NCBI GenBank assembly: GCA_029204225.1
Contig: CM055098.1
Coordinates: 22,943,367-23,007,366, forward strand
DNA: 64,000 bases
Direction of reading: 5' to 3'
Source: Diphasiastrum complanatum
Lineage: Eukaryota > Streptophyta > Lycopodiopsida > Lycopodiales > Lycopodiaceae
Within the stretch, counting starts at the first letter, position 1, and each line of letters opens with the position of its first letter. The notes under the pieces are model-generated. The model did not search any database. It saw only the letters and a list, made by a program, of their open reading frames with translations, and had not been told where the DNA came from. Shown here one piece after another: positions 8,875 to 51,001 of this stretch. Made by a program: the position numbers and the translations under genes.

Positions 8875-9349
8875 TGATGTCAGCAGATACACTCTGTCAT
8901 TGCTAATCTGCCACTCTTGTAATCTCCTAATTAGTTGTAGATGTTTAGTCACTCTAATCTTAAAAATTACATAGAACAACTATATACTTGCTGGATGATA
9001 CTTGATAATATATAACAGAGAATACACAGAAGTGTAGAAGTCTGATGCTAGTAAGCAATCAAGATGAAATACAGACAAGAAGTCCGCCTGCGAGCGAGAT
9101 TTGCACATTGGTTGAGATTTATTGAATGCTGCATTAATTTATAAACGTAGATCAGTAGTGACTGACTACATTCTAGAGGACTGTAGGAGTGATTTCGCTG
9201 GCAGTGTCCAGCAATCGCATCTGAACTCCATCCAAATCACATTGAGTCATAGTCACTTCGCCTTCGCGACAGTTTTGTGACCGCGAAAGCTATTGATCTC
9301 TTCTCATCATTGTTTCGCGACCACGAAAGCTATTTATCTCTTTTCATCA
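8875..9349 (+). repeat. probable 3' LTR of Copia A
   Basis: The segment follows Copia A pol and starts TGATG and ends CATCA, matching short inverted termini of an LTR. Its last 190 bp recur in part at 45580-45719: about 70 bp from GACTACA to CAATCGCATCT is highly similar, and both copies end CATCA followed by GAAACAA. No upstream polypurine tract is clear and the 5' LTR is absent, so the left boundary is uncertain. Confidence 0.5.
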
Positions 9350-19754: not shown

Positions 19755-20880
19755 ACATTAAAGTCTTTGGAAAAAAACGGGTCCTTGAAAAAATTTGAGT
19801 CCTTGAAAAAATTCAAGCCTTCGAAAAAAAATTCTAGTCTTTGGAAAAATTTTAGCTTTGAAAAAATTCGAGTCTTTAGAAGAAAAAAATCGAGTCTTTC
19901 GAAAAATTCGAGTGTTTTGAAAAATTCGACTTGACAATACAAAGGGTCCTTCGATCCTTCGGAAAAATTCAAATTGACAATTCGACCCTTCGGAAAAATT
20001 TGAGCCTTTGAAAAAATCAAGTCTTTGAAAAAATTCAAGTCTTTTGAAAAATTTGACCCTTAAAAAAAATTCGATCCTTCGAAAAAATTCGAGTCTTTCA
20101 AATCTTTCCAAGAATTCAAGTCTTCGAGAAAATTCGATGCTTTGGAAAAATTCGAGTCGTTGAAAAAATTTCAGTCTTAAAAAAATTTCGAGTCATATGA
20201 AAAATTTGATCCTTTGAAAAAATTTGAGTCATTGAAAAAATTCGAGTTTTTTTCGAAAAAATTGAGTCTGAGAAAAATTTGAGTCATTGGAAAAATTCGA
20301 TTCTTTGAAAAAATTCGATTTAGTGAAAAAATTTCGAGTCGTTCCAAAAAATCGAATCATTGGAAAATTCGATTTGTATCAAAAATTCGAGTCATTATAA
20401 AATTTGAGTTGTTCCAAAAAATCGAGTCGTTTGAAAAAAATAAGTCTTTCGGAAAAATCAAGTTTTTCAAAAAACTTGAGTCTTTAGAAAAATTCGAGTC
20501 TTTGAAAAAAAAATCGAGTCATAAGAAAAATTTGAGTCATATGAAAAATTCGAGTCTTTTGAAAAAAAAATTGAGTCTTTGAAAAAATTCGAGTCTTTGA
20601 AAAAATTTGAGTCTTTGATAAATTCGAGTTATTGAAAAAATTCGAACTTTTGAAAGAATTTGATCTTTTGAAAAAATTCGATTCATTGGCAAAAATTCGA
20701 GTCTTTGAAAAAATTCGAATCGTTTCAAAAATTTGAGTCTTTGGAAAAATTTGATTCTTTGGAAAAATTCAAGTCGTTCCAAAAATTTGAGTCTTAAGAG
20801 AAAGTCGAGTCATATGAAAAAATTCGAGTCTTTTGAAAAATTTGAGTCTTTGAAAAATTCGAGTCATTGGAAAATTAGAT
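19755..20880. repeat. 18-bp minisatellite, about 60 degenerate units
   Basis: Unit close to GAGTCTTTGAAAAAATTC, 16-20 bp, with frequent substitutions and A-run length changes across 1.1 kb. Minus-strand reading frames through it (FFQRLEFF-type) are translation of the repeat, not a gene. Its right end abuts a Helitron helicase fragment. It is not a CRISPR array: there are no unique spacers. Confidence 0.93.
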
Positions 20881-22772: not shown

Positions 22773-23454
22773 TGTAAAAATTACAGCAAATAAGGATCCT
22801 AAAACACTTGAAATGATGAGAGAAACAATAGATTATGATTTCATAAGATTAGCACAAGTTGAACCATCAAAATCCATCAAAAATCTATGCTTGAACCTCA
22901 CTAAATGGCCCAAATCCTTGAAGAAGGCTTCACACGTGTGAAATTACGGCCTTCCACAGTCTGAGTACTGTACACCAGACCTACATTCAATCCTATAATC
23001 ATTAGTAATCACAAGTACTCAAACAATTATGAACATAGAGAGCAATTGCACCATTATGAGAGAAAAAACATGAAATTGCTTGATTGATTTTGGTGAGATA
23101 TCATCACCTATATATACATGATCCATCACGGTTTTGGGCAGGTATGAGTAGCCCTAAACCTATCCCTAATGCTAATTTTGGTGGATCTTTCATCCCTACC
23201 AAGTTAGGGTTGGAATCTTGGAGATCCTTCAACAATGCAAAAATTACCAAAAATAGCTCCTATTTTTTCTCCCTTGTATCTAAGCATAATTTGGACTCAT
23301 TCCAAAGGTTCTAACACTTAGGTCTACTTGAGAACATCCTTATGAATGGAATCCTATGCTATTTGGCACGTGTGACAAGCCACATCATGACCATCTAACT
23401 ATTTACAAGTCATATGACCAAAACTAGTCAAGCTAGAATTGTGAATTTTTAACA
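22773..23454 (-). repeat. 3' LTR of Copia1
   Basis: 682 bp, bounded TGTAAAAATT ... AATTTTTAACA, identical to 28243-28924. Contains the palindrome TTCACACGTGTGAA at 22929-22942. Confidence 0.95.
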
Positions 23455-26400
23455 CTCCTGCTCACTATCTAGCTTGGTTGAATCATTGCTTTACTAATCA
23501 CTCCAAGTGATGATCTGAACTTCATAAAAGGTGTCTTTTGAAGTGGTTTAGTAAGTAGATCAGCTACACATTCATTGCTTGGAACATGCTCCAAAGCAAT
23601 CTCCTTGGCTTGCACCATTTCTATCACAAAGTGATGGCATATCTCAATGTGCTTAGATCTTGCATGGAAGATTGGGTTAGATGCAAGGTGTTGGGCTGAT
23701 ATATTGTCATTGTAGATGATTGGTGCCTCCTCTGAATCCATGATCTTTAGTTCCACCAATAATCTCAAAAAGTACCTCCTTTGTAGTGGTTGTCAAAGCT
23801 TTGTACTCGGCCTCGGTTGAAGATAGAGATATAGTTTCTTGCTTTTTTGAAAGCCATGAAACCACACCTTCTCCTATGAAAGTTGAATAGGCACTTGTTG
23901 ATTTCCTATCCCTCTTGTCCCCTGCAAAATCTGAATCACTAAATTCATGAAGGTTAATCACATCTCCTCTATATAGAATCCCAAAATCCAATGTACCCGA
24001 GATGTATCTTAGAATCCTCTTAGCCTTTTTCCAATGGATATTCAATGGCTTTTGCATGGATTGGCTCAACCTACATACACTAAAGCTAAGATCTGGTCTA
24101 GTTATAGTGATCCACATTAAGGAACCTATAAGTTGCCTAAACAAAGTGATGTCCATGAAGGATCTTTCATCATCTTCATTTGGCACTTTTACATCTTGCT
24201 CCATTGGTGTGTCAACACTTTTGCATACTTCCATCTTAAACTTCTTCGAAAGACTTTGAGCATAGTTTACTTGACTTATAAAGATAAAATCAGACCCTCT
24301 AAGTACTTCTATGCCTAAGATGAAGTGAAGACACCCTAGATCTACCATCTTGAACTCTAAGGATAGATCTATCTTGATTTTTTCAATACCATCAACACTA
24401 TTTCCACTAATGATGATATCATCTACATAAATGAGTAAAAGTACAATACCAACATCATCAAACTTAATGTAAAGAGTGGGATCATATTCACTTTGAACAA
24501 AAGAAAGTGAAATAAGATAGCAATGTAGTCTTGAATTCCAAGATCTCGAGGCTTGCTTCAAGCCATAGATGCTTCTTTGGAGATGGCATACTTTGTTCTC
24601 CATTCCATGCTTGATGAACCCTTGTGGCTACTCCATATAGATATCCTCTTCCAAAAAACCATTCAAGAAAGCATTAGAGACATCCATTTGACATAGAATC
24701 CATCCAAAATGTGATGCAAGTGCAATGATTAGTCTTATTGTGGCCATCTTGGCCACGGGTGCAAAAGTTTCCTCATAGTCTATCCCTCTCTCTTGAGCAT
24801 AACCTTTTGCAACTAATCTTGCTTTATGTTTGTTAACACTCCCATTTGCATTCAACTTAAGCTTGAAGACCCACTTGCATCCTATTACATTCCTTTGAGG
24901 TCTCTCAACAAGCAACCAAGTTTCATTCTCAATCAAGGCATCATACTCATCCAACATAGCTTTATACCATTCTTTGGAGTTCAATGCATCTTCAACATTA
25001 GACGGTTCTTCAAAACTAGATAAAGCATAAGGAGTGGATGATATACCCTCAACTTGCTGTCCTTTGCCTTGATATGTGAGCCTTGATGGCTCCACTTTTG
25101 CCCTTGAAGATCTCCTTGGTGTGATAGGTGGGTTTGGTGCTTGCTCCTCCATGAGCTCCTCCTCAAAACCAAGATCTTGCTCCTCGGCCATCTTCTTCTT
25201 GATTGTTGGAGCACTTGAGCCTTCTTCAAGCATATGCATATGATGTTCATCAAAGATGACATCCCTTGAAACAACAAATTTGTTCAAGGATGGGAGATAG
25301 ACTTTGTAGCCCTTGCTTGAGCTTGCATATCCAAGCATGATCCTCTTGTGGAAGATGGATCCTCCTTGGTTCTTGTTTCCAATGGCACATGCACATAACA
25401 TATACACCCAAAAACTTTCAAGTGATTAAGATTGGGTTTCTTTCCATACAACATCTCATATGGAGTTTTGCCTTCAATTGCTTTGCAAGACACCCTATTC
25501 ATCAAGTATTTTGCACATACAAGAGACTCACCCCAAAAGGATTTGGGAAAACAAGCATCTAATCTTAAAGCCTTAGAACATTCACATAATGTTCTATTCC
25601 TTCTTTCAGCAACTCCATTTTGTTGAGGAGTGTAAGGACAAGAAGTCTCTTTCTTGATCCCTTCCTCCTCACAAAAGGCCTTGAACTCATTGGAGATGAA
25701 TTCTCCACCATTGTCACTTCTAAGGATCTTGATGCTATGATTATGATGCTTTTCCACAAACAACTTGAACTTTACAAAAGTATCAAATACTTGAGACTTG
25801 AAGGAAAGTAAGAACACCCAACAATATCTTGAGTAGTCATCAATGAAGGTTAAAAACATGGATGAACCTCCATTAGATTTGGTGCTAGCAATGTGCACAT
25901 CCGAGTGTATGAGTTCAAGAGGATGAGATGACTTTGTGATGGAGTTAGGAAACACCTTCTTATGTGCCTTGGATAAGGCGTAAGCTTCACAAACCTTGTC
26001 TTCCTTCCCAATAGACCTTGGTAGGCCTAAAGCATACTCCTCCTTGATCATAGCCTCCATGGAACCCGAGTTGACATGTCCAAGTCTTTTGTGCCATAAA
26101 GTAAAGGTAGATATCTTGCTCTTCTCGGCCAACATGACAACATTAGTATCCACAAATGCATCCAGCTTATAAAGTTTGCCAAGTCTAGTGCCCTTAGCCA
26201 CTATCTTACCCTTCTTCTTGATGAAACATTCATTTGAAGCAAAGTCAACATTGAAACCATTGTCTACCATTTGGCCAACACTTAGTAGATTCTTTGTTAT
26301 TGTAGGAATGTACAAAACACCTTCTATGTTGATCTTTTTGGAAGATCCTAAGCAAAGGGGAATGCTACCAACTCCTTCAATCTTACAAGCTTCATCATTT

Positions 26401-27431
26401 GCTGTATAGATAGACTTTATAGGTCCATCATAAGATAATAGAGAAGAGAAAAACTCCCTTTTACTAGTCATGTGTGAACTAGCACCCGAGTCAATCCACC
26501 AAGGATCTTCTCCTTTGAAGCTTGTTGAAGAAAATATGGACATCATGAGAGAGTCCTCATGTGAACTCTCCTCCTCCTCCTCTTTGCTCATGTTGGCTTG
26601 GCTTTGATCTTGCTTCCTCTTGAAGCATTCCGAGGCATAATGCCCCATCTTGCTACAATAGTAGCACTTCACCTTTGATTTGTCCTTCTTGACTTTGGTG
26701 GTTGATGGAGATGCCTTTGGGGGTCCTTCTTGATCCTCAAGCTTTGTAGACTTCTTGAATGTTGATCCTTTGCCTTTGGACTTGCCTTTGCCTTTGGTGA
26801 AGAGAGCTTGGTCATCTCCACCTTGGATGGAAAGCCTATCCATCCTCTCTTGCATTTGGCTCCTTCTTGATTCCTCGGCCATGAGCGTGCCTTGGAGTTC
26901 TTCAAGTATGGGTAGCTTACCCATAATTGCATATCCCTGAACCAAATTGTCAAATTCAAAGCTTAGTCCATTCAATATGAGTTGAACAAGCTCTTCATCC
27001 TTGATAGGTTCACCTATAAAGGCTAGCTCTTTGTTCAATTCTTTTACTCTTAGGACAAAAGTATGTGCACTCTCTCCTTTCTTTTGATAGCTTCTATAGA
27101 TTTGATTCTTCAAAGCTAACATTCTAGTTTGGTTCTTGGATTCATAGACCTTTTGCAAAGTCTCCCAAGCATCTTGAGCTGAAGTGCAATCTCCTACCTC
27201 TCTTAAGAGTTCATTTGCAACATTCATTTTTATGCAATGTAGTGCAACATTGCACCTCTTGATGTATTTGGCTTTTTCTTGAGGATGAATAGGTTCACCC
27301 TCCTTACCATTTACAATTTCCATCAGATCTTGCATGATCATGATAGATTCCATTCTAACTTTCCATATGGAATAGTTAGTTTTGTTGAGCCTTTCATTAG
27401 TATCCAAAAGATATGCATTTATAGATGCCAT
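23455..27431 (-). pseudogene. Copia1 gag-pol polyprotein, three lesions
   Basis: Starts at the ATG of MASINAYLL (27431). Order: gag (about residues 1-230), zinc knuckle CYYCSKMGHYASEC, protease WWIDSGASSHMT, integrase (HKRLGHV zinc finger, then HSDVH, TFIDDYSRY, TPQQNGVAERRN), RT (KCWVFKLK-type, YGLKQASRSWN, YVDDIIISG) and RNase H (SDSDFAGD, STEAEYKAL). Lesions: a frameshift near 25340, a TAG at 24628-24630, and a frameshift in a T-run near 23770. In the integrase zinc finger the CxxC pair reads CEAY, so one zinc ligand is lost. Otherwise catalytic residues are all present. It could be a dead copy mobilised in trans, or the indels could be assembly errors. Confidence 0.93.
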
Positions 27432-28230
27432 CTAGTCTCCTAATCAAGGACTTGACACAAATGAAGGTTACTTCTATTGATTTGATTGAAGGTCTACCTT
27501 ATCCCACTTCTTAGGGACCTGAAAAGATCAGTAATAGACTTCCTATAAAGATCTAAGAATGATCTCTAACAAAATCAAATCATAGAATACTAGAAACAAT
27601 GCACTTGCTTGATTGAAGTAGACAATACTAGTAGAATTGCCCATCTTTCTATAAAGAACATTAAAGCTTCCAAATGATCTGATCAAGAGTGAATTTCAGC
27701 AACCTAATATACTTCCAAAATCACTTGTAAAAGTTCTAAATGGAACTTAATGAGGATGCAACACAATCTACTATCCAATCACAAGCAAAAAATGATCAAA
27801 ATTGATGAAAAATTGATCTAATTTGGTGCATAAGTCAAGCAATGGTTGGACTGAACCTAAATCACTTTAGGAGGTGCCTACTACACCTTAGAACAGCCTT
27901 GAAGAGTCCCCAAAACTCTGATCTTCCCTCTCCTTGAATGCTAGAAAGCCTTCTCTATGAAATCACCTCCAAAACTCGCTTAGAAATCAATGCTTGGAGC
28001 AAGCAAAACTTGCTATCTTGGTAATGTGAATTGAATTCAACATTGCCTCTGGTTTTAGACACCTAAACACCTGCAAATGAAGTCACACAACACCAATCTC
28101 CAATGTATTTGACTCACTTTGAGTTCTAGAATCAATACTAGATGCTAAGATCCAATCTACACAAGATTTAGATCAAAAATTGTGATCAAATTGAATGCAA
28201 ACCAAGGATTTAGCTCATTTCAGCCTTTAG

Positions 28231-28242
28231 GCTCTGATACCA
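28231..28242 (-). other. tRNA primer-binding site of Copia1
   Basis: Minus strand TGGTATCAGAGC immediately next to the 5' LTR, complementary to initiator-Met tRNA. Confidence 0.92.
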
Positions 28243-28924
28243 TGTAAAAATTACAGCAAATAAGGATCCTAAAACACTTGAAATGATGAGAGAAACAATA
28301 GATTATGATTTCATAAGATTAGCACAAGTTGAACCATCAAAATCCATCAAAAATCTATGCTTGAACCTCACTAAATGGCCCAAATCCTTGAAGAAGGCTT
28401 CACACGTGTGAAATTACGGCCTTCCACAGTCTGAGTACTGTACACCAGACCTACATTCAATCCTATAATCATTAGTAATCACAAGTACTCAAACAATTAT
28501 GAACATAGAGAGCAATTGCACCATTATGAGAGAAAAAACATGAAATTGCTTGATTGATTTTGGTGAGATATCATCACCTATATATACATGATCCATCACG
28601 GTTTTGGGCAGGTATGAGTAGCCCTAAACCTATCCCTAATGCTAATTTTGGTGGATCTTTCATCCCTACCAAGTTAGGGTTGGAATCTTGGAGATCCTTC
28701 AACAATGCAAAAATTACCAAAAATAGCTCCTATTTTTTCTCCCTTGTATCTAAGCATAATTTGGACTCATTCCAAAGGTTCTAACACTTAGGTCTACTTG
28801 AGAACATCCTTATGAATGGAATCCTATGCTATTTGGCACGTGTGACAAGCCACATCATGACCATCTAACTATTTACAAGTCATATGACCAAAACTAGTCA
28901 AGCTAGAATTGTGAATTTTTAACA
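28243..28924 (-). repeat. 5' LTR of Copia1
   Basis: Identical to 22773-23454. In the element's sense, TATATATA is at 28586-28579 and the palindrome TTCACACGTGTGAA at 28412-28399, 174 bp downstream. Confidence 0.95.
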
Positions 28925-28943
28925 AATCTTGCTCAATGTTCAT
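28925..28943 (-). pseudogene. CYP94-like pseudogene, sliver between two insertions
   Basis: About 14 bp of gene sequence plus target duplications lie between Copia1 (ends 28924) and Gypsy1 (starts 28944). Read with 22772 downward it gives MNIEQDLVNNQELPD, the segment before the P450 I-helix; read with 38660 upward it rejoins SRFMNI. TTCAT here (28939-28943) matches TTCAT at 38660-38664. Confidence 0.85.
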
Positions 28944-42692: not shown

Positions 42693-43573
42693 AGCGGCAA
42701 AGAGTGTGCAACAAGGGGGGGGGGGGGGGAAGCGGGCGGCTGACGTGGATGGTAGTTGACCGTGCAGCCAGCAGGCCCCAAGTGAAGTTAATGGGAGGGG
42801 GCACCCGCCCCCTCACCATTTCAAATTGGTTTTTTTTTAGTTTCTTTTTATTATGGGGCCCAAGCTCATATTGGGCCCCTTCTTTCTAAACTCAAATTAA
42901 GAAAATTGTCAATTGAAAGTCTCTTGAAATGCAGGCTAATCTTCATTTGAAATCTGAATTTTAAGTGTGGTTAAGAGTGAGACATTGTCATTAATAAGGG
43001 GCTAGGGATATAGAGTTAATGGGGGCTAGTGGGTGGGTTAGATTTTGAGAATTTTATTTAGCCATTGGATGCCAGTTTGATTTTCTGCATGCTCTTTGAA
43101 TTGTTTGAACTTGATGAAAGCTTCTGATTTCTGTTTAATGAAGTAAACAGCTGTTCTTTTGGAGAATTCGTCAATAAACATTAGGGGAAATATGGGCTCA
43201 AAATGGGCCCTTTAAGAAATTCCACTTTAGAGAGAGGCTACGTAGAGAGAGAATGCAAACTGGTAACTTCTGGTTGCCGTTTTCCAAGTTTCCGGCCTTG
43301 CCCGACGTTTAACTAGTATGCAATAGTTAGTTTAGCATGAGATGTAATAACTTCTCTTTATGCTCGTTTTAAAATTCGGGACAAGAGCTTTAAGACTGAA
43401 AATCTTAGTGTGCTCAATGCAAAAACTGAAGCGGGAGAGACAAAACTTTTGAAATCACTGTATGCTTATATTGAAATATGAGGCGGGACGATTTTTCAAT
43501 GCGACATAAACATTACAAAAGTAAGGAATGCTAGATCTATTCATATTGATTTATTGTAGGTAGATTCATTTAC
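42693..43573. other. no gene seen
   Basis: Poly-G run (42714-42729), short foldback near 42855-42879, then AT-rich sequence without coding signal up to the transposase-like gene. Confidence 0.4.
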
Positions 43574-45580
43574 ATGATTGTAGCTTTAAGAATGGCAATG
43601 TTCCATTTGCATGTTGCTCTTCCGATGAGATGCACTCCAATTATTAAGAAAAATGCGAAAGTTGTAGAGAATGCTGCAACAATAGTTAGAGAATTGAGAA
43701 TGAATAATCATATGAAGATAGATTTGTGGGTGGGTGGATCAATTTATCCTAATGATCCAGCTACTAATTTGTGTCCAAATTTTAAGTCCGTAACTCATCT
43801 TTTCAGATATGTATGTGAAGAAAATAGCGAATTACTTGGATATTGTCAAAGGTTGCATGATATTGGAATGCATAGCATATCTTGTCTGAATCAACAATTA
43901 CAATTTGCTAATCAACAATTGCAATGTGCAAATCAACAATGCTTCATTATGTGCAACACACTAGTGCTGAAAATAATGCACTCAAGAATGTTGTGTCAGA
44001 GTTAAATGCTACTGTCACTACTCGTTGAGGATCAAACCAAGAAATGTTAGAATTCATGGAAAAGTTGCGATCTGAGAGTTTAAAATCTGCTATTGATCTA
44101 AAAGTTATCAATAAGACAATGATGAAGAGGAAATAAAAGAGAGCACCGATGAAGAATATTGATGACCTATCTACACATAGCGGCAATCAGAAAAAAAAAA
44201 AATCCAAGCATTCAAGTATGTTGTCATCTAAATTGTTTATTTGATTTGTATATGTCATTTAAGTTTGATTTGCACTTGATAACATGGATTATTTATTTAT
44301 TAAACATTATTTGAGTTTCATACGTTTGTTGCAGATCATGTTTGGTGGCAAAGAACTATTTAACATATCGTTCATGCATTGGATCATCTTTAAGTCATGT
44401 TGTACCAAGAAAGTCAGCAAAGGAAATGATAAAAAATGCACAGTTTGAAAAAATAAAAAATGAAATTATGGAGACTATTTTGGTTCAATCATACTTGAAT
44501 GCAAATGTGATACAAGGTGCATGTGATGTATCTGGAATTAGCAGAAATGCTTATTCTACTTTTTTTAGAATAGTTAAAGAAGCTTTTTCCCAAGTGATGG
44601 TGAAGAAAATTAATCTTCCGCGTCCATATCGGGTAAGATTAGCTAGAAATTTTTATAATGACAGAATGTTCAAAGTAGTTGGCCAACCACTTCATATAAT
44701 TGAATTATACAAATCAGAATATGGTGAGCTCAATTACAATGATTGCAACAATATTTTCCTTGATATTGAAAAGGTTCTAAAATACATTATTTGATTCTAT
44801 AAACTAGACGAACATCAAGTAAATGGAAAGATCATTATTATAATAAAATTGAATGAATCTGAAATCATCAAGGGTCAGAAGTTGGAACGTGTGAGTGTCA
44901 CTTTGATGAACAAAATTTCAGATACAGATGATCGAACGTTTAGTGTCCAATCGGAAAATCACATATGGTGGTTGGCGGCATTCCAGGTATACATTTCAAT
45001 TTTCCTTTAGAATATATAATTAACAATTCATACCTTGTCAGTTTTTATTGACATGTCATGCATCACTTGCTTCTCTACAAGTCTTGAAAGAGGATCATAA
45101 AATACTATCATGGATATTTTCAAGAACAGATTATGGCGAGATTATAAAGAGACATTTGGAGGGTGAGAAATTTACAGTAAAAAACCATGGAAGTTTTCAA
45201 ATTCAATGGCACCTTGCAGGGGATTTGAAAACATTAAAATGTGTGTATAATGTCTCTCATGGGACAACATCAAAGCATCCATGTCTTTATTGCATGAAGG
45301 ATTGCTACAATATGAATTTGGGACGATCAACAAACACTGGCCCAACACGAGAAGCTGAAGATCCAAATATGAAAAGTGTTTTGCCAATTTCATTAAAATA
45401 TGTTCACATATGTACATTGCATGCTAAAGTTCATATTATTGAAAAACTAATTTACCTGCATATTCTACTAGCATGCAATCATAAACCAGAGTCAGTGGCT
45501 AAAACATCAATTAGGAGGTTGGAAATAGTTCTGTCAAATGCAAGACTATGTAAAGGGAATGTCACAATTGAAAGTGCTTG
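43574..45580 (+). pseudogene. intron-containing DDE-like transposase relative, truncated
   Basis: Exon pieces join in frame across GT-AG introns at 44217-44334 and 44987-45041. Order: unknown N-terminal region (43574-43940), a coiled coil with repeated QQLQFAN units (frameshift near 43940; stops near 44020 and 44133), a basic KKKKSKH stretch, a helix-turn-helix-like segment (GACDVSGISRNAYSTFFRIV), a beta-rich part (KIIIIIKLNESEII ... RVSVTLMNK) after a TGA near 44794, then WHLAGDLKTLKCVYNV, HPCLYC and LKYVHICTLHAKVHIIEKL. The GDLK, C-x2-C and HxxTLH pattern resembles an unnamed transposase-like family of eukaryotic genomes; the assignment is from pattern memory. The gene is cut at about 45580 by an LTR-like segment. 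Confidence 0.55.
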
Positions 45581-45719
45581 ACTACACTCTGGAGGACTGT
45601 AAGAGTGATTCCACTAGCAGTGTCCAGCAATCGCATCTAAACTCCATTCGAGGCAAAAGAGAGAGTCGTGGTTCCTTCGCAAAAGCTTCGCAACTACGAT
45701 CCTCCTCATACTCCCATCA
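45580..45719 (+). repeat. LTR-like segment shared with Copia A
   Basis: Similar to 9162-9349, best over the 70 bp from GACTACA to ATCGCATCT, and ending CATCA followed by GAAACAA in both places. It cuts the transposase-like gene on its left and a minus-strand frame on its right. Confidence 0.65.
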
Positions 45720-45947: not shown

Positions 45948-47396
45948 GATATCGGTTCAATGCGACAGATAAATATCGGTAGAGGAATAAAACAAAGTGC
46001 GCGCTCTGATCCGATATGGTAAGGCCGAGAATGAAATTTTACGAAAAGCACTTGTCGAAAGTGGCTGATATCGATTCAACACGCCTGAATGAATACGAGC
46101 ATGCACAACAAGGGATGGCACGCGTCGATTCGATATCGCAAGAATGAAAAAAAAAACAAGAAGGCTAGAGAGTTCAGTATAAAAGATCACGGAATTGAAA
46201 TATGGAAAGTGGTGCACATATTTATAGCCAATTCCTGTTGATCACAACCATACATTTGTCAAATAACGAATTGAGATTTACAGTCTATATTTATCCACCA
46301 ATCAGAATGAGACAAATTTGTACCTATGCCGAAATACATTAACTAGTCTATCACTAGATTCAATGAATCATCATAGCCCTGACCCTAGAATCTGTACCTA
46401 CGCCGGAATACATTAAATAGACAATCACTAGCCTCTTAGAATAATTATTAAAAAAATTATAAACAAATGATTAATGGATATCATTGAAAAACGTGTACGA
46501 AGAGAATTATTACAATATTTAAGCACTGTAAAGACGAAAATTTTTCTTTTGAGATAATGTTCATTCAAAACATTTTCATAAGTCTTTCATCATGCGTTCC
46601 AGTATGATTTTTTGCATATGGGATATCGGATCAGTGCACCTGACAGACGATGTATTTGCTGCATTTAGACTGTGCACGTCGAATCACTATTCCAAGACCA
46701 AAATATTATCGAAATTTTTGAAACTATTGGATCCTATATGCATGATCAAAGCTTGATTCGGGAATCAAAAGGCTCTTCATACTGGCCAAACTTATGCAAA
46801 ATCTATCGAATCAAGCTCTGATCATTCATATTGCGTCCAATATCGGATGAGCATGCGAAAATACATACTCTGGTTTTCAAATGCTTTATATGCGCATTGA
46901 TTAGCTATCGGGTGAAAATCTGGGCTTTGGAATTTTTCAAAATTATAATTATTGGATATAAAAAAGGTCTTATATTTAAAGCTTAACGTTGTCAATTTCA
47001 GCATTAAATGGTAGAAGTGTGATAACATACTTTTGTAGCATTAATTGTAGATGTGACCATACTTTATTTGAAATTAATTCTGATTAATTCGATGTGGACT
47101 AATCATTTTGATGATTGATGGATATTTAGATTGATTTGATTGACAAGCCTCTGAGTAGTCATCATCGTAATCCAAGTCTTGCACATCCAAACCACCACGT
47201 TTGCAATCATTTTTTATTTTCTCTATATATTTTGATCAACGACACTGAATTTTTTTTTGCTTATACTTATTTGCATCCATGAGATATCGATTCAGCGTGC
47301 TCAAAAACAACCTCCTTTAATTCGTTACTACTCGCTCACGCCCATCCGCTACCAGCTAATAGATTTGTTGAGCTCAGGTATCGCTTTGACGCGTCC
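45948..47396. repeat. dispersed GATATCG...TTC...GCG motif cluster, left
   Basis: A 17-18 bp motif near GATATCGRTTCRAYGCG. Forward: 45948-45964, 46067-46084, 46622-46639, 46842-46857, 47283-47300, 47378-47396 (weaker). Reverse: about 46000-46016, 46122-46137. Spacing is irregular and the intervening DNA is AT-rich and non-coding. More copies lie at 49004-49022 and 50233-50336. Confidence 0.65.
47221..47234 (+). promoter_or_regulatory. possible TATA box of the H3-like gene
   Basis: CTCTATATATTTTG about 225 bp upstream of the H3-like ATG at 47456. Position suits a promoter; no other evidence. Confidence 0.3.
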
Positions 47397-47455: not shown

Positions 47456-48373
47456 ATGGCATGGACCAAGCAGATAGCACGAGGGCATTCAGGTGGAATA
47501 CCAATTTCAGGTGTGGGTTAGGGACATCCACAACCACCACCTCGTCCACCACCACCTCCTCCTATGCCAAGGGGCAGAAGAAGAGACCCATCCTGGCTCA
47601 AGGATATTCGGAAGCTTCAGAAGACAAATAATCTTCTGATTCCGAAATCTCACATACAGAGGTCCATCAGGCAGGTGACAAGAAGTCTATCTGTAGATGT
47701 GAGATGGACGGTAACGGCAATTGAGGCGCTGCACACAGCATATGAGGATTTCTAGGTGAAAAGTTTTTCTGATACTATTGTTGCAGCTGTCCATGCCAAG
47801 AGGGTGACCATCATGCCCAAGGATCTCAACATTGTGTTCAGGCTTTGGAACACATATGACAAGTTACCTGAATACGTTAGACCTGCTTCCTCCTCTCCTC
47901 CAAAACAAGATTCAGAAAGGAGAAAATGAAAGCAATCTCAACCAACCCGGCTTGTTATTCGTATACAGAGCGGGAGTGTTTCAAAGAAGAGGAGATCTCT
48001 TGACCCTCCATCTAAAGCGAGGGATTTTTCCAAGCCATCTCCTCTGAATACTATTCTTTCTTCTAGGCATTCTCCTCCTAAGTCTCCTTCTTCTCCCCCC
48101 ACTCCATCTTTAACTTCTCCTGCTAAATCTTCCTCTCTTGATAAATCTCCACCTCCTAAATCTCCTCCTCCTCCTAAATCCGTAAATATTAGTTCCTCTC
48201 CTCCTGTTCTTGGAAGCGATTTAGATGATTTTGTTAGTGTAAAGATAGAATCAATTTTGAATGACAATTCTTTATGTGGTTTATCACTTCTGTCACCCCT
48301 TGCACTTGCCTTTGTAAATACTCCTCAATATGTACAGTATGACCAATTGTTAAACACTATCTTAAAGGTTTAG
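47456..48373 (+). pseudogene. histone H3-like protein with proline-rich insert and basic SP-rich tail
   Basis: From ATG 47456 one frame of 305 codons, broken by TAG 47519, TAG 47753 and TGA 47927, no frameshift. Residues 1-13 read MAWTKQIARGHSG, matching the H3 tail MARTKQTARKSTG: K4 kept, R2 to W, K9 to G, S10 to H. The rest of the tail is replaced by a poly-proline stretch. From LKDIRKLQK the frame aligns without gaps to the H3 core (about 85 positions, 37 identical by hand count), ending in HAKRVTIMPKD, the H3 signature of loop 2 and helix 3. Then a tail of KSP, SPPK and SPAK repeats like linker-histone DNA-binding motifs, and TPQYVQYDQLLNTIL. It would be a divergent, CENP-A-like or orphan H3 variant. 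Exons of a C48-like protease follow on the same strand. Confidence 0.85.
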
Positions 48374-48816
48374 GTCCTCGGTACAGTTTTAGGATGCCGA
48401 AGACCATGGTCTCCCCCTCTCTAGTTTAGATACTAGTGAATTAGAAAGTAGGGATAAAATGCTAGGGGACAATGTAGGAGGTGGGGCAATTCAGTATTGG
48501 ATGGAGTTTTTCAGACCCCATTGTTTATACATGTTGCATTGTTTCCCCTTCAATTCATGGCTGCATTTGATCATCCTGATTTCAAAAGTTTGCACGATGC
48601 CAATACGACTCCAATTCTTGTGCTGCCATACATAACAAAATAAGTGTCTATTTTTCAGATTTTATTTTATTGAATTTTTCATATGAATTTTGATTTCACA
48701 TTGATTCTCATAAATTTATTGTTTTCTGATTTCAGTGATCATTGGAGCTTATATGTGTTGTCCTTGTACGTCAATGATGAGGGTGTGTGTAATCCAGTTT
48801 GTTTAAAGATGAACTC

Positions 48817-48820
<4 letters not shown>

Positions 48821-48901
<81 letters not shown>
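48821..48901. repeat. (AC)n microsatellite
   Basis: Forty AC units interrupting the protease exon after its catalytic His segment. Confidence 0.97.
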
Positions 48902-48903
<2 letters not shown>

Positions 48904-48984
48904 TTGCCAGGACCCATATACAGAAAATATTGGAACTCTTTCTATTACCAAATGCAAAAGCATAATTGAAGTTGAAAATGTTTG

Positions 48985-50373
48985 ATGCAGAGGTATAAAT
49001 TTTTCAATATTGGTTCCACGCGCCCTTGTAGTTATTGATTGGTGTTAGCTGATTCTGATGAATCCCCATGATACTTGGACAGAGCAACTCAAGAGCACCT
49101 CTCACCTTAGACCGAGGAGGTCTCTGAGAAAACGAGACTAATGAAGACTGAGAGCCGAGAAATGCTAGTTAGGAATGACAAGCAAGAACTGTGTAAGCCT
49201 CATGGTGAATCCCGGAAGATGGAATGACCATGTAGGAACTAGTATTACTAGGCAAATGTAATAAATGCAAGTAGACCCCTCTTAAAAAAAGTAGAGTGAG
49301 CCACCTTTTGATGATGACCTCTAGTAGAGAGCATTATTCCACTTATAATTTGTGAAATGTGGAAATTCCACTAGGATGTCACCTAAGGAGCTCTCTTGCT
49401 TATTTAAGGGACTCCCTCTTTGTGAAGAGGAGCTTTTTGTGAATTGTATCAACTCCATGCTGAAATGAGAAGAGCCTCTTCACGAGTTTGGTGCATCCAT
49501 TGAGTTCCTTGATCATGCTTGTTTCTTGAGTGATGCATTTATGATCTTGCCTTTCCCTCCTTTTGTGTGTGGTTGTGGATTGTAGAGTGGATTAGATTTG
49601 CTGCTTTCCTAGAGTGGATTAGTTTCTTTTCTTGTTTGTGGATTAATGTAGGAACCAGCATTTAGGTAAACTAAATAAGCTGGATCTGTGGTGTACTTCT
49701 TGCATATCTCCTTACAATCCAGTTCTTGATGTTCTTGGGATGTCCAAGAATCAATAGGTTGGTTGGTTTCTTGATTCTTGGACTTCTAACATGCTATGGA
49801 TTAGTTTCTTGTTTCTTGGTTTGTCAATTTATGCTAGTGTAGCTCAGCTTAGTAAAATTTAGGTTCTGATTCAATTCGTTTTTAGGAGTAAATAGTTGTA
49901 GAATCTTCAAAATGTTCATTTGGACTGCACTTTGATCTGTGAATGAGCATTCATGGCTTGCATCTTGTTTAGAATGTAAGTGCGTTCAAGAGAGACGACC
50001 CTGAGTAGTCCTTTGACAGGCAGGACAAAAACAATATACTACAATGACAATCTGTTCCCTTCTGCCTAGTTTGACATTGTAATATCAAGAGCACACATAA
50101 CGAATGCCTAGAAGCTTGGTAACAGGCAGAATACCAATCCGTAGAAGTTGTAAGCAAGGATCAAAAGAACCGTAGTAAACAGATCCTCTAGGTCCTCTGG
50201 ATTTGTAAACAATTGGTTTATTTTCATAACGTGCACGCTGATCCGATATTCAATCAAACTTTTTTGATATCGGTTCGATGCGTGCTTGTTTCCGTTGTAG
50301 ATTTTATTCTTACATCCTGCGCGTTGATTCGATATCTCATAATGTTCAAATTTGGATTCTGTAGTCCCCCCAG
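48985..50373. other. no gene; intervening sequence between protease exons, with GATATCG motifs
   Basis: 1.4 kb without coding signal, either a long intron or a separate insertion. Motif copies: 49004-49022 (CAATATTGGTTCCACGCGC), 50233-50249 (reverse), 50266-50285 and 50319-50336 (reverse). Confidence 0.45.
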
Positions 50374-50742
50374 CAGGTTAATTCTGTCAACTGTGGTTGG
50401 TATACCGTATGCAATGCCAAACACTTTTTTAATTAGCTTGCATTACAAGATGGACTTCCAAATCTGGAAGAGGTAATATTCAATTAATTACTTTTAATTG
50501 TGTTTTTGTTTTCTTCATATACAAATTTCTATTAACTGATCTTTGATTAATTACATTTAACTGTGTTTATGTTTTTTTTTCAGTTTAAATGCCCGAAGGT
50601 CTCCCCAATGGAGATAATGCACTTCAGACAGGAGACCATTAAGCTTGTGATTGAAAAGTCATATCTAGTTGCAATGGCCGAGTGTTCTCCACCCAAGCTA
50701 CTTCCAACTGGAGAAATGGATTTAGAGATTATAGATAGTTGA

Positions 50743-51001
50743 TACTAATTAAATATTCACCTCACTTGATGTGGATGAGACACATGTACAGAAAATTTTA
50801 ATAGAAATATACTTACATTTTTTCTATGGTTGTTCTTACTTGTTTTTTTTTCCTCTTATCAATTCAAGTTATGATTCATTCATCTTCAATTTCTACTATT
50901 TTTTTGACATGTTTGTTTTTCATAGCCTTGGTCTGCCTTGCCTTTACCATGGTCTTTTTTTGGATAAGTAGTGCTAATGCTTAGGGTTAATGGAGTTAGA
51001 G
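50743..51001. other. no gene seen
   Basis: T-rich sequence after the last protease exon. Confidence 0.4.

Follow-up and report, generated by a model that had tools for sequence, protein, structure and literature searches.

A decayed gene was analysed at positions 47456-50742 (+ strand) of a 64,000-nucleotide stretch of Diphasiastrum complanatum DNA (the window; GenBank assembly GCA_029204225.1, contig CM055098.1, positions 22,943,367 to 23,007,366 of the forward strand). It contains a histone H3 tail and core followed by the boxes of an Ulp1/C48-type protease, and it is probably a degenerate copy of one of the two genes of a multicopy element, a gene predicted to encode an H3 variant, a linker and a C48 protease (H3-Ulp1). 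The polypeptide would consist of an H3 variant with its own tail and a complete core, a basic Ser/Pro-rich linker and an Ulp1/SENP-type C48 cysteine protease. The assignment is based, at the level of sequence, on a single gene with in-phase introns and on two diverged subfamilies, A (including the window copy) and C, which have the same two-gene order and together occupy about 250 listed places. The genome searched comprised 1.74 Gb in 5176 contigs, with the window on contig C7.

The window copy was divided into four exons, all on the + strand. Exon 1 (47456-48639) holds the H3 tail (47456-47521), a proline-rich stretch with the H3 core (47522 to about 47860), the KSP/SPPK-rich linker that the first-pass annotation had already placed after the H3 part, and the beginning of the protease domain as far as LPYIT. 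Intron 1 (48640-48735) has AT at the donor and CAG at the acceptor. Exon 2 (48736-48992) carries the C48 His box DHWSLYVL, the motif KMNS, with Asn at the position of the catalytic Asp, and an internal (AC)40 run; its 3' boundary was placed by similarity to subfamily C. The Gln and Cys boxes lie in exon 3 (50365-50471; SPQQVNSVNCGWYTV) and the C-terminal segment, which runs to a stop, in exon 4 (50584-50742; FKCPKVSPMEIMHFRQETIKLVIEK...).

The H3 frame of the window was searched with X substituted at the stops. The region matched the Pfam Histone profile with an expectation value (E) of 4e-21, so that the H3 match claimed in the first-pass annotation passed the profile search, and the halves between the stops matched separately with values of 3.4e-10 and 3.9e-5, the latter just under the Pfam cut-off. 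Against chains of solved structure, the best of 176 matches at E <= 0.001 was H3 (1.3e-18, residues 1-130). The alignment to solved H3, described earlier as free of gaps, is gap-free in the core but has a single one-residue gap in the tail, which reads MAWTKQIARGHSGG against MARTKQTARKSTGG in H3 and is recognisably that of H3. By subfamily, the Pfam Histone values were 4e-21 for A (window), 5e-28 for C (locus L051) and 2.1e-26 for a further H3-like type, D (locus L056). A chance match to H3 was rejected on the profile E-values and the copy number.

The core identity to host H3 was 38-52% for A, C and D, and that between A and C was 37-44%. Nucleosome-contact residues are conserved: six frames aligned from A, C and D all keep the residues that match H3 R69, R83, H113, R116, T118 and D123 (residue numbering according to our own alignment). 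In place of the canonical H3 C-terminus RRIRGERA the frames have RLWNTYD in the window, RLRDTYH in the subfamily A locus L011 and RMRDRYC in L051. A single-sequence fold of the window H3 piece was of low confidence, with a predicted local distance difference test score of 48.5. In a small tree of 14 rows, calculated from one short domain and including two CENH3 rows, A, C and D were set apart together by a branch with 98/98 support; membership in, or capture from, CENH3 was rejected since the three form their own group in this small tree.

The tails bear on an alternative that we regard as quite improbable, namely that the tail and core are a decoy which occupies histone chaperones, readers or writers and disturbs silencing with no nucleosomes being formed. 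Such a role would suit the MARTKQT tail present in 11 of 30 subfamily A rows, the loss of K9 from the A tail and the MARTESTARA tail of type D. It does not suit subfamily C, in which the tail is degenerate (MDRRKQTRRDF) yet the core residues that contact DNA and H3' are retained.

Copies of subfamily A were retrieved by a protein search with the window frame, in which 129 candidates were scored from 10,996 first-look candidates. The result comprised 140 rows corresponding to 129 listed places, the window included, with 11 rows representing second pieces; the rows other than the window were 71-87% identical to the window frame. Near-duplicates occur among the places listed for both A and C, and some rows from small contigs have scores identical to those of rows from large contigs, so that independent insertions are fewer than listed places. 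In two loci (L011 and L032) a single open frame takes in the H3 tail, core and linker and reaches TPILVL(P/S)YI, immediately ahead of the His box. The intron at the His box could be aligned in 24 of the 29 non-window A loci (all except L019, L020, L023, L026 and L027), several of which are near-duplicates. A GT donor was present in 24 of these 24 and an AG acceptor in 23, the acceptor of L011 reading AA. Splicing of this intron joins LPYIT-N-DHWSL, or a close variant, in phase. The GT-AG introns proposed in the first-pass annotation fail at the AT donor of intron 1 in the window but hold for this donor in every alignable copy. Two of the loci are damaged at this point, L030 being without the His and L018 having a frame change at the junction. 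Among the 30 rows of A, made up of 29 loci and the window, three have a fully open exon 1, and two of these three are without the initial ATG.

A further 14 H3-like places were retrieved, consisting of nine of type B, three of subfamily C (L051, L052 and L055), one of type D (L056) and one of type E (L058). The C frames have an H3 core and linker different from those of A and likewise end at the His-box intron. In L051 four exons separated by GT-AG introns give an open frame of 470 amino acids; exon 4 had two possible acceptors (470 or 465 amino acids), the first of which was used. The 470-residue product matched Pfam Histone at 1e-27 and Peptidase_C48 at 1.1e-10 (42.2 bits; cut-off 20.7). In subfamily C the PF02902 cut-off of 20.7 was passed with 46.1 and 42.2 bits over profile positions 81-209 of 217. 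Among solved structures, the L051 protease matched an Ulp1-like SUMO protease (6.5e-4) and yeast Ulp1 (1e-3).

A search with the L051 exon listed 122 rows of subfamily C, L051 included, the others being 84-93% identical to it. For at least 36 of these 122 H3 rows, the matches listed include a C48 row that lies downstream in the same orientation, in 30 cases at a distance of exactly 104 nt; the control, in which the C48 row was sought upstream or on the opposite strand, gave 0. The paralogs thus pair the two modules, and in the open copies the H3 frame continues into the protease, in agreement with the first-pass proposal that H3 and protease belong to one gene, for which the 470-residue frame of L051 is a further argument. 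That H3 and Ulp1 are instead two adjacent genes is scarcely credible. The splicing of H3-Ulp1 is predicted from the nucleotide sequence alone, which leaves some room for such an arrangement, but exon 1 in copies of both A and C is open from H3 to the residues preceding the His box, and the splice sites are conserved and in phase; two separate genes were rejected on these grounds. A host fragment captured at a single locus was likewise rejected, there being many copies in two subfamilies.

The protease module of the window was examined with a small C48 profile of seven sequences. With this profile the Cys box at 50365 (SPQQVNSVNCGWYTVCNAK) was the top of 127,888 codon windows, with a score of 21.6 against 11.7 for the runner-up. 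The His box at 48740 ranked second or fourth with short blocks and 24th with a 17-residue block interrupted by the intron, and the remaining C48 blocks tested did not stand out among the codon windows of the window. An intron-aware profile alignment of the window recovered the Cys box alone (26.5, compared with 25.5 for the next window). When the window composite was compared with seven Ulp proteins, between three and 25 of 500 shuffles attained the score, and the two alignments shown comprised the Cys box only. Against the Pfam-positive protease of L051 the window pieces scored 172, a value that 0 of 1000 shuffles attained (top shuffle 49). The catalytic His, Gln and Cys are present in the window as DHWSL, PQQ and NCGW, and the same boxes are found in L051 and in many A copies. 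On the window evidence alone a protease is likely; its identity was settled through the paralogs, which resolve the weak evidence of the window taken by itself.

Several results weigh against the H3-protease assignment and against a simple enzymatic activity. The C48 pieces of the window gave no relevant match in Pfam, NCBIfam or the PDB; the Ulp1 identity given in the first-pass annotation thus lacks a Pfam match in the window itself, but is sustained by the outlying Cys box and by the similarity to the C48 region of subfamily C, and a C48 profile search leaves the window exons below the cut-off while accepting the L051 protein. Subfamily A composites also remained under the Pfam C48 cut-off (15.2 bits versus 20.7). 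In L051 the C48 match starts inside exon 1 (residue 316) and corresponds to profile positions 81-204 of 217, which leaves the first part of the domain without profile support. Of the 30 A rows, not one is intact over its full length, and L051 alone is open throughout among the three C copies in which the protease exons were read, L052 being without the Cys box and L055 having a stop beside it. The position of the catalytic Asp is occupied by Asn (KMNS) in both A and C. Ratios of nonsynonymous to synonymous substitution (dN/dS) add to these points. For a close third pair in subfamily C the ratio was 0.38 in the H3 core and 1.13 across the whole exon; values of 0.45, 0.62 and 0.91 were obtained for the C48 part, and the low values obtained for the H3 core in the other two pairs both involve L052. 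Synonymous divergence (dS) in C is uneven between regions (0.46 versus 0.08), which suggests recombination. In subfamily A, the H3 core value of 0.52 was not separable from those of shifted frames (0.38 and 0.65), and the tail and linker gave 0.88 and 0.87.

The values on the other side are those of the two C pairs that include L052, with dN/dS of 0.11 and 0.14 in the H3 core and 0.61 and 0.66 in the linker, and that of the protease part of exon 1 in A (0.35, against 0.59 and 0.86 in shifted frames). Long-term constraint on H3-Ulp1 is well supported when A is compared with C, and the recent copies support it only in part. The same data bear on a passenger origin, according to which the element acquired fragments of H3 and protease and transports them with no function. 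Transposons often capture pieces of host genes, the majority of the listed copies are decayed and selection on the A core is not clear; even so, we consider this origin very improbable, as the fusion, the intron position and the gene order are shared by subfamilies whose H3 cores have diverged to the extent given above, the H3 core dN/dS is low in two C pairs and exon 1 is free of stops in 24 of the 122 listed C rows.

A decayed transposase-like gene lies upstream of H3-Ulp1 on the same strand (43550-45573, +) and is cut off at about 45573. Its frames, which are decayed or partial, gave no convincing Pfam match and, in particular, no match to a MULE (Mutator-like element) or Tnp2 domain. Five A copies, on contigs C8, C9, C16 and C17 (two copies), were extended. 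In the C8, C9 and second C17 copies, as in the window, the transposase-like gene precedes H3-Ulp1 in the same orientation, and in the C16 copy it is mostly inverted; it was not found in the first C17 copy (L011), the upstream side of which is interrupted by other sequence. Two loci of subfamily C share the gene order of the window, with transposase-like pieces of 40-67% protein identity. A left end (43179-43213, +; CATTAGGGG...GGGCCCTTT), starting with CATTAGGGG at 43179, is common to three copies, which diverge just outside it, and an inverted downstream counterpart, equal at 29 of 35 positions, was located in one other copy only. A DNA transposon with inverted ends is the most likely carrier, and H3-Ulp1 looks like a retained gene of that transposon because the splice donor is conserved, the transposase-like gene lies upstream, the left end is shared and an inverted right end is likely. 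The first-pass annotation had called the protein transposon-borne, and the copy number and the linkage to a transposase-like gene agree with this.

Between the two genes (45948-47300) there are copies, in both orientations, of an 18-bp motif similar to GCGCGTTGATTCGATATC, with more copies at 50233 and 50319. Seven matches were counted at up to three mismatches (0.11 expected) and nine at up to four (no control). Within the window the motif copies (45948-47300 and 50233-50336) are confined to this element, and they are possibly binding sites. A 75-nt direct repeat, 88% identical, was observed at 45573-45647, the point at which the transposase-like gene is cut off, and at 9157-9231.

The decay of the window gene, noted in the first-pass annotation, takes several forms. 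The H3 frame opens with the ATG at 47456 (+) and is broken by stops at positions 47519, 47753 and 47927; a frame change follows, and the frame closes at 48371. Exon 1 as a whole has these three stops and two mutually cancelling frame changes near 48360 and 48510. To these are added the lost donor of intron 1, the (AC)40 run, an insertion in intron 2 resembling a solo long terminal repeat (LTR) and the termination of similarity to the other copies at 50969-50970, beyond which the copies go on; similarity did not resume between 50969 and 60000. The intron 2 insertion (49043-50211) is flanked by an ATTGG target duplication (49038-49042 and 50212-50216), and the LTR label is based on its TG...CA ends and this 5-bp duplication. 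It is missing in ten aligned loci, and a long intron 2 as the original state was rejected because the insertion is not in the copies.

The run at 48820-48900 is an (AC)n microsatellite lying within the subfamily A protease exon (exon 2). The number of repeats ranges from three to 49 among the copies L009-L038 that have a run; seven copies with three, six, nine or 12 repeats stay in frame, encoding Thr-His repeats, and repeat length therefore helps to decide the frame of exon 2.

The DNA of the window is rich in transposons, with copia, gypsy and frames resembling long interspersed nuclear elements according to our reading. A copia-type element at 22773-28935 has two end repeats that are 99.6% identical, and a copy of it (98.9% identical) is found inside the first C17 copy (L011) of the H3-Ulp1 element. 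A tandem array at 19760-20880 has an 18-bp unit similar to AAAAATTCGAGTCTTTGA.

Further H3-like types were characterized at the remaining places. In type D (L056) the H3 core precedes the start of the transposase-like gene, the reverse of the order in A and C, and a search of the 2.6 kb retrieved gave no C48. Type B (L045-L050, L053, L054 and L057) is a further multicopy H3-like type with a long proline-rich stretch and an H3 core, mostly terminating in RRLRRERN; at the one locus searched (L045, 2.7 kb) no C48 or transposase-like match was obtained. Type E (L058, 418-813) is a short diverged H3-like frame with the terminus ...MRITKID. Among viral contigs, 600 pattern matches contained no relative.

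A mechanism may be outlined for the fusion protein. The H3 module would pair with H4, or be bound by readers or chaperones of H3, and the protease would thereby be placed in chromatin, at the element or at a target site. There it could strip SUMO, which takes part in silencing, from silencing or repair proteins, making expression or transposition easier. That the H3 module targets the protease to chromatin for SUMO removal is put forward tentatively, with somewhat less than even confidence. The more specific proposal that this transposon lineage uses its own H3-protease fusion to equip its DNA or its target sites with de-silenced nucleosomes is rather doubtful. The interpretation in the first-pass annotation, that a transposon-borne protein could enter chromatin through its H3 fold and remove SUMO locally, is thus partly supported: the H3 profile match, the pairing in paralogs and the copy number speak for it, but the Asn at the position of the catalytic Asp does not.

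With this Asn the module may be a SUMO-binding pseudoprotease instead. In the corresponding alternative the H3 part tethers the protein to chromatin and the Ulp1-like module reads SUMO without cleaving it, so that the protein holds the transposition complex on SUMO-rich chromatin in the manner of chromodomain integrases, with no deSUMOylation. We think it unlikely, though worth serious attention: the Asn is found in both A and C and the C48 match is weak in A, but the His, Gln and Cys boxes are retained in the window, many A copies and L051, and Asn at the catalytic Asp position occurs in an active C48-like viral protease.

The proposed H3-protease element was compared with known systems. Plant Mutator-like and CACTA elements with an ULP1-like C48 region (MULE-ULP and CACTA-ULP) are described in the main text of PMC2528002, in which the word 'histone' occurs 0 times; as described there they are plant DNA transposons with a C48 domain, as in the present case, whereas here Pfam gave neither a MULE nor a Tnp2 match for the transposase-like gene and the protease is fused to H3. 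Ginger1 DNA transposons have a C-terminal Ulp1 domain, for which the authors propose a role in transposition (PMC2836005; 'histone' 0 times in the main text). They resemble the present element, as far as the main text describes them, in having an Ulp1 domain within a transposon protein, and differ in that their Ulp1 is joined to an integrase-like transposase and not to H3.

With H3 and CENH3 variants the H3 module shares the tail, the core and the residues that contact DNA and H3', but its core identity to host H3 (the 38-52% given above), altered C-terminus, location on a transposon and fusion to a protease set it apart. The protease shares with OTS1, ESD4, SENP and Ulp1/2 the His box, the PQQ-Cys box and the box order, and differs from them in the Asn at the Asp position and the N-terminal H3 fusion. 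A survey of the open-access literature by title and start of abstract returned no transposon-borne H3 and no H3-Ulp1 fusion. On this literature, the histone-protease protein is rated as new and the DNA transposon that carries an Ulp1 as a known kind.

Transposons carrying Ulp1 are established; the direct fusion of such a protease to histone H3 suggests that it would act in chromatin. The protein would be a natural histone-protease fusion, which in its subfamily A version has an H3K4-type tail, and the family raises the possibility of a genomic parasite acting on host chromatin with a histone of its own. If the H3 module enters nucleosomes, host chromatin would be rewritten by a mobile element through the histone that it encodes, and new H3 variants could arise from this source; if the nucleosomes are de-silenced, the element would provide chromatin of its own in which an anti-silencing enzyme is built in.

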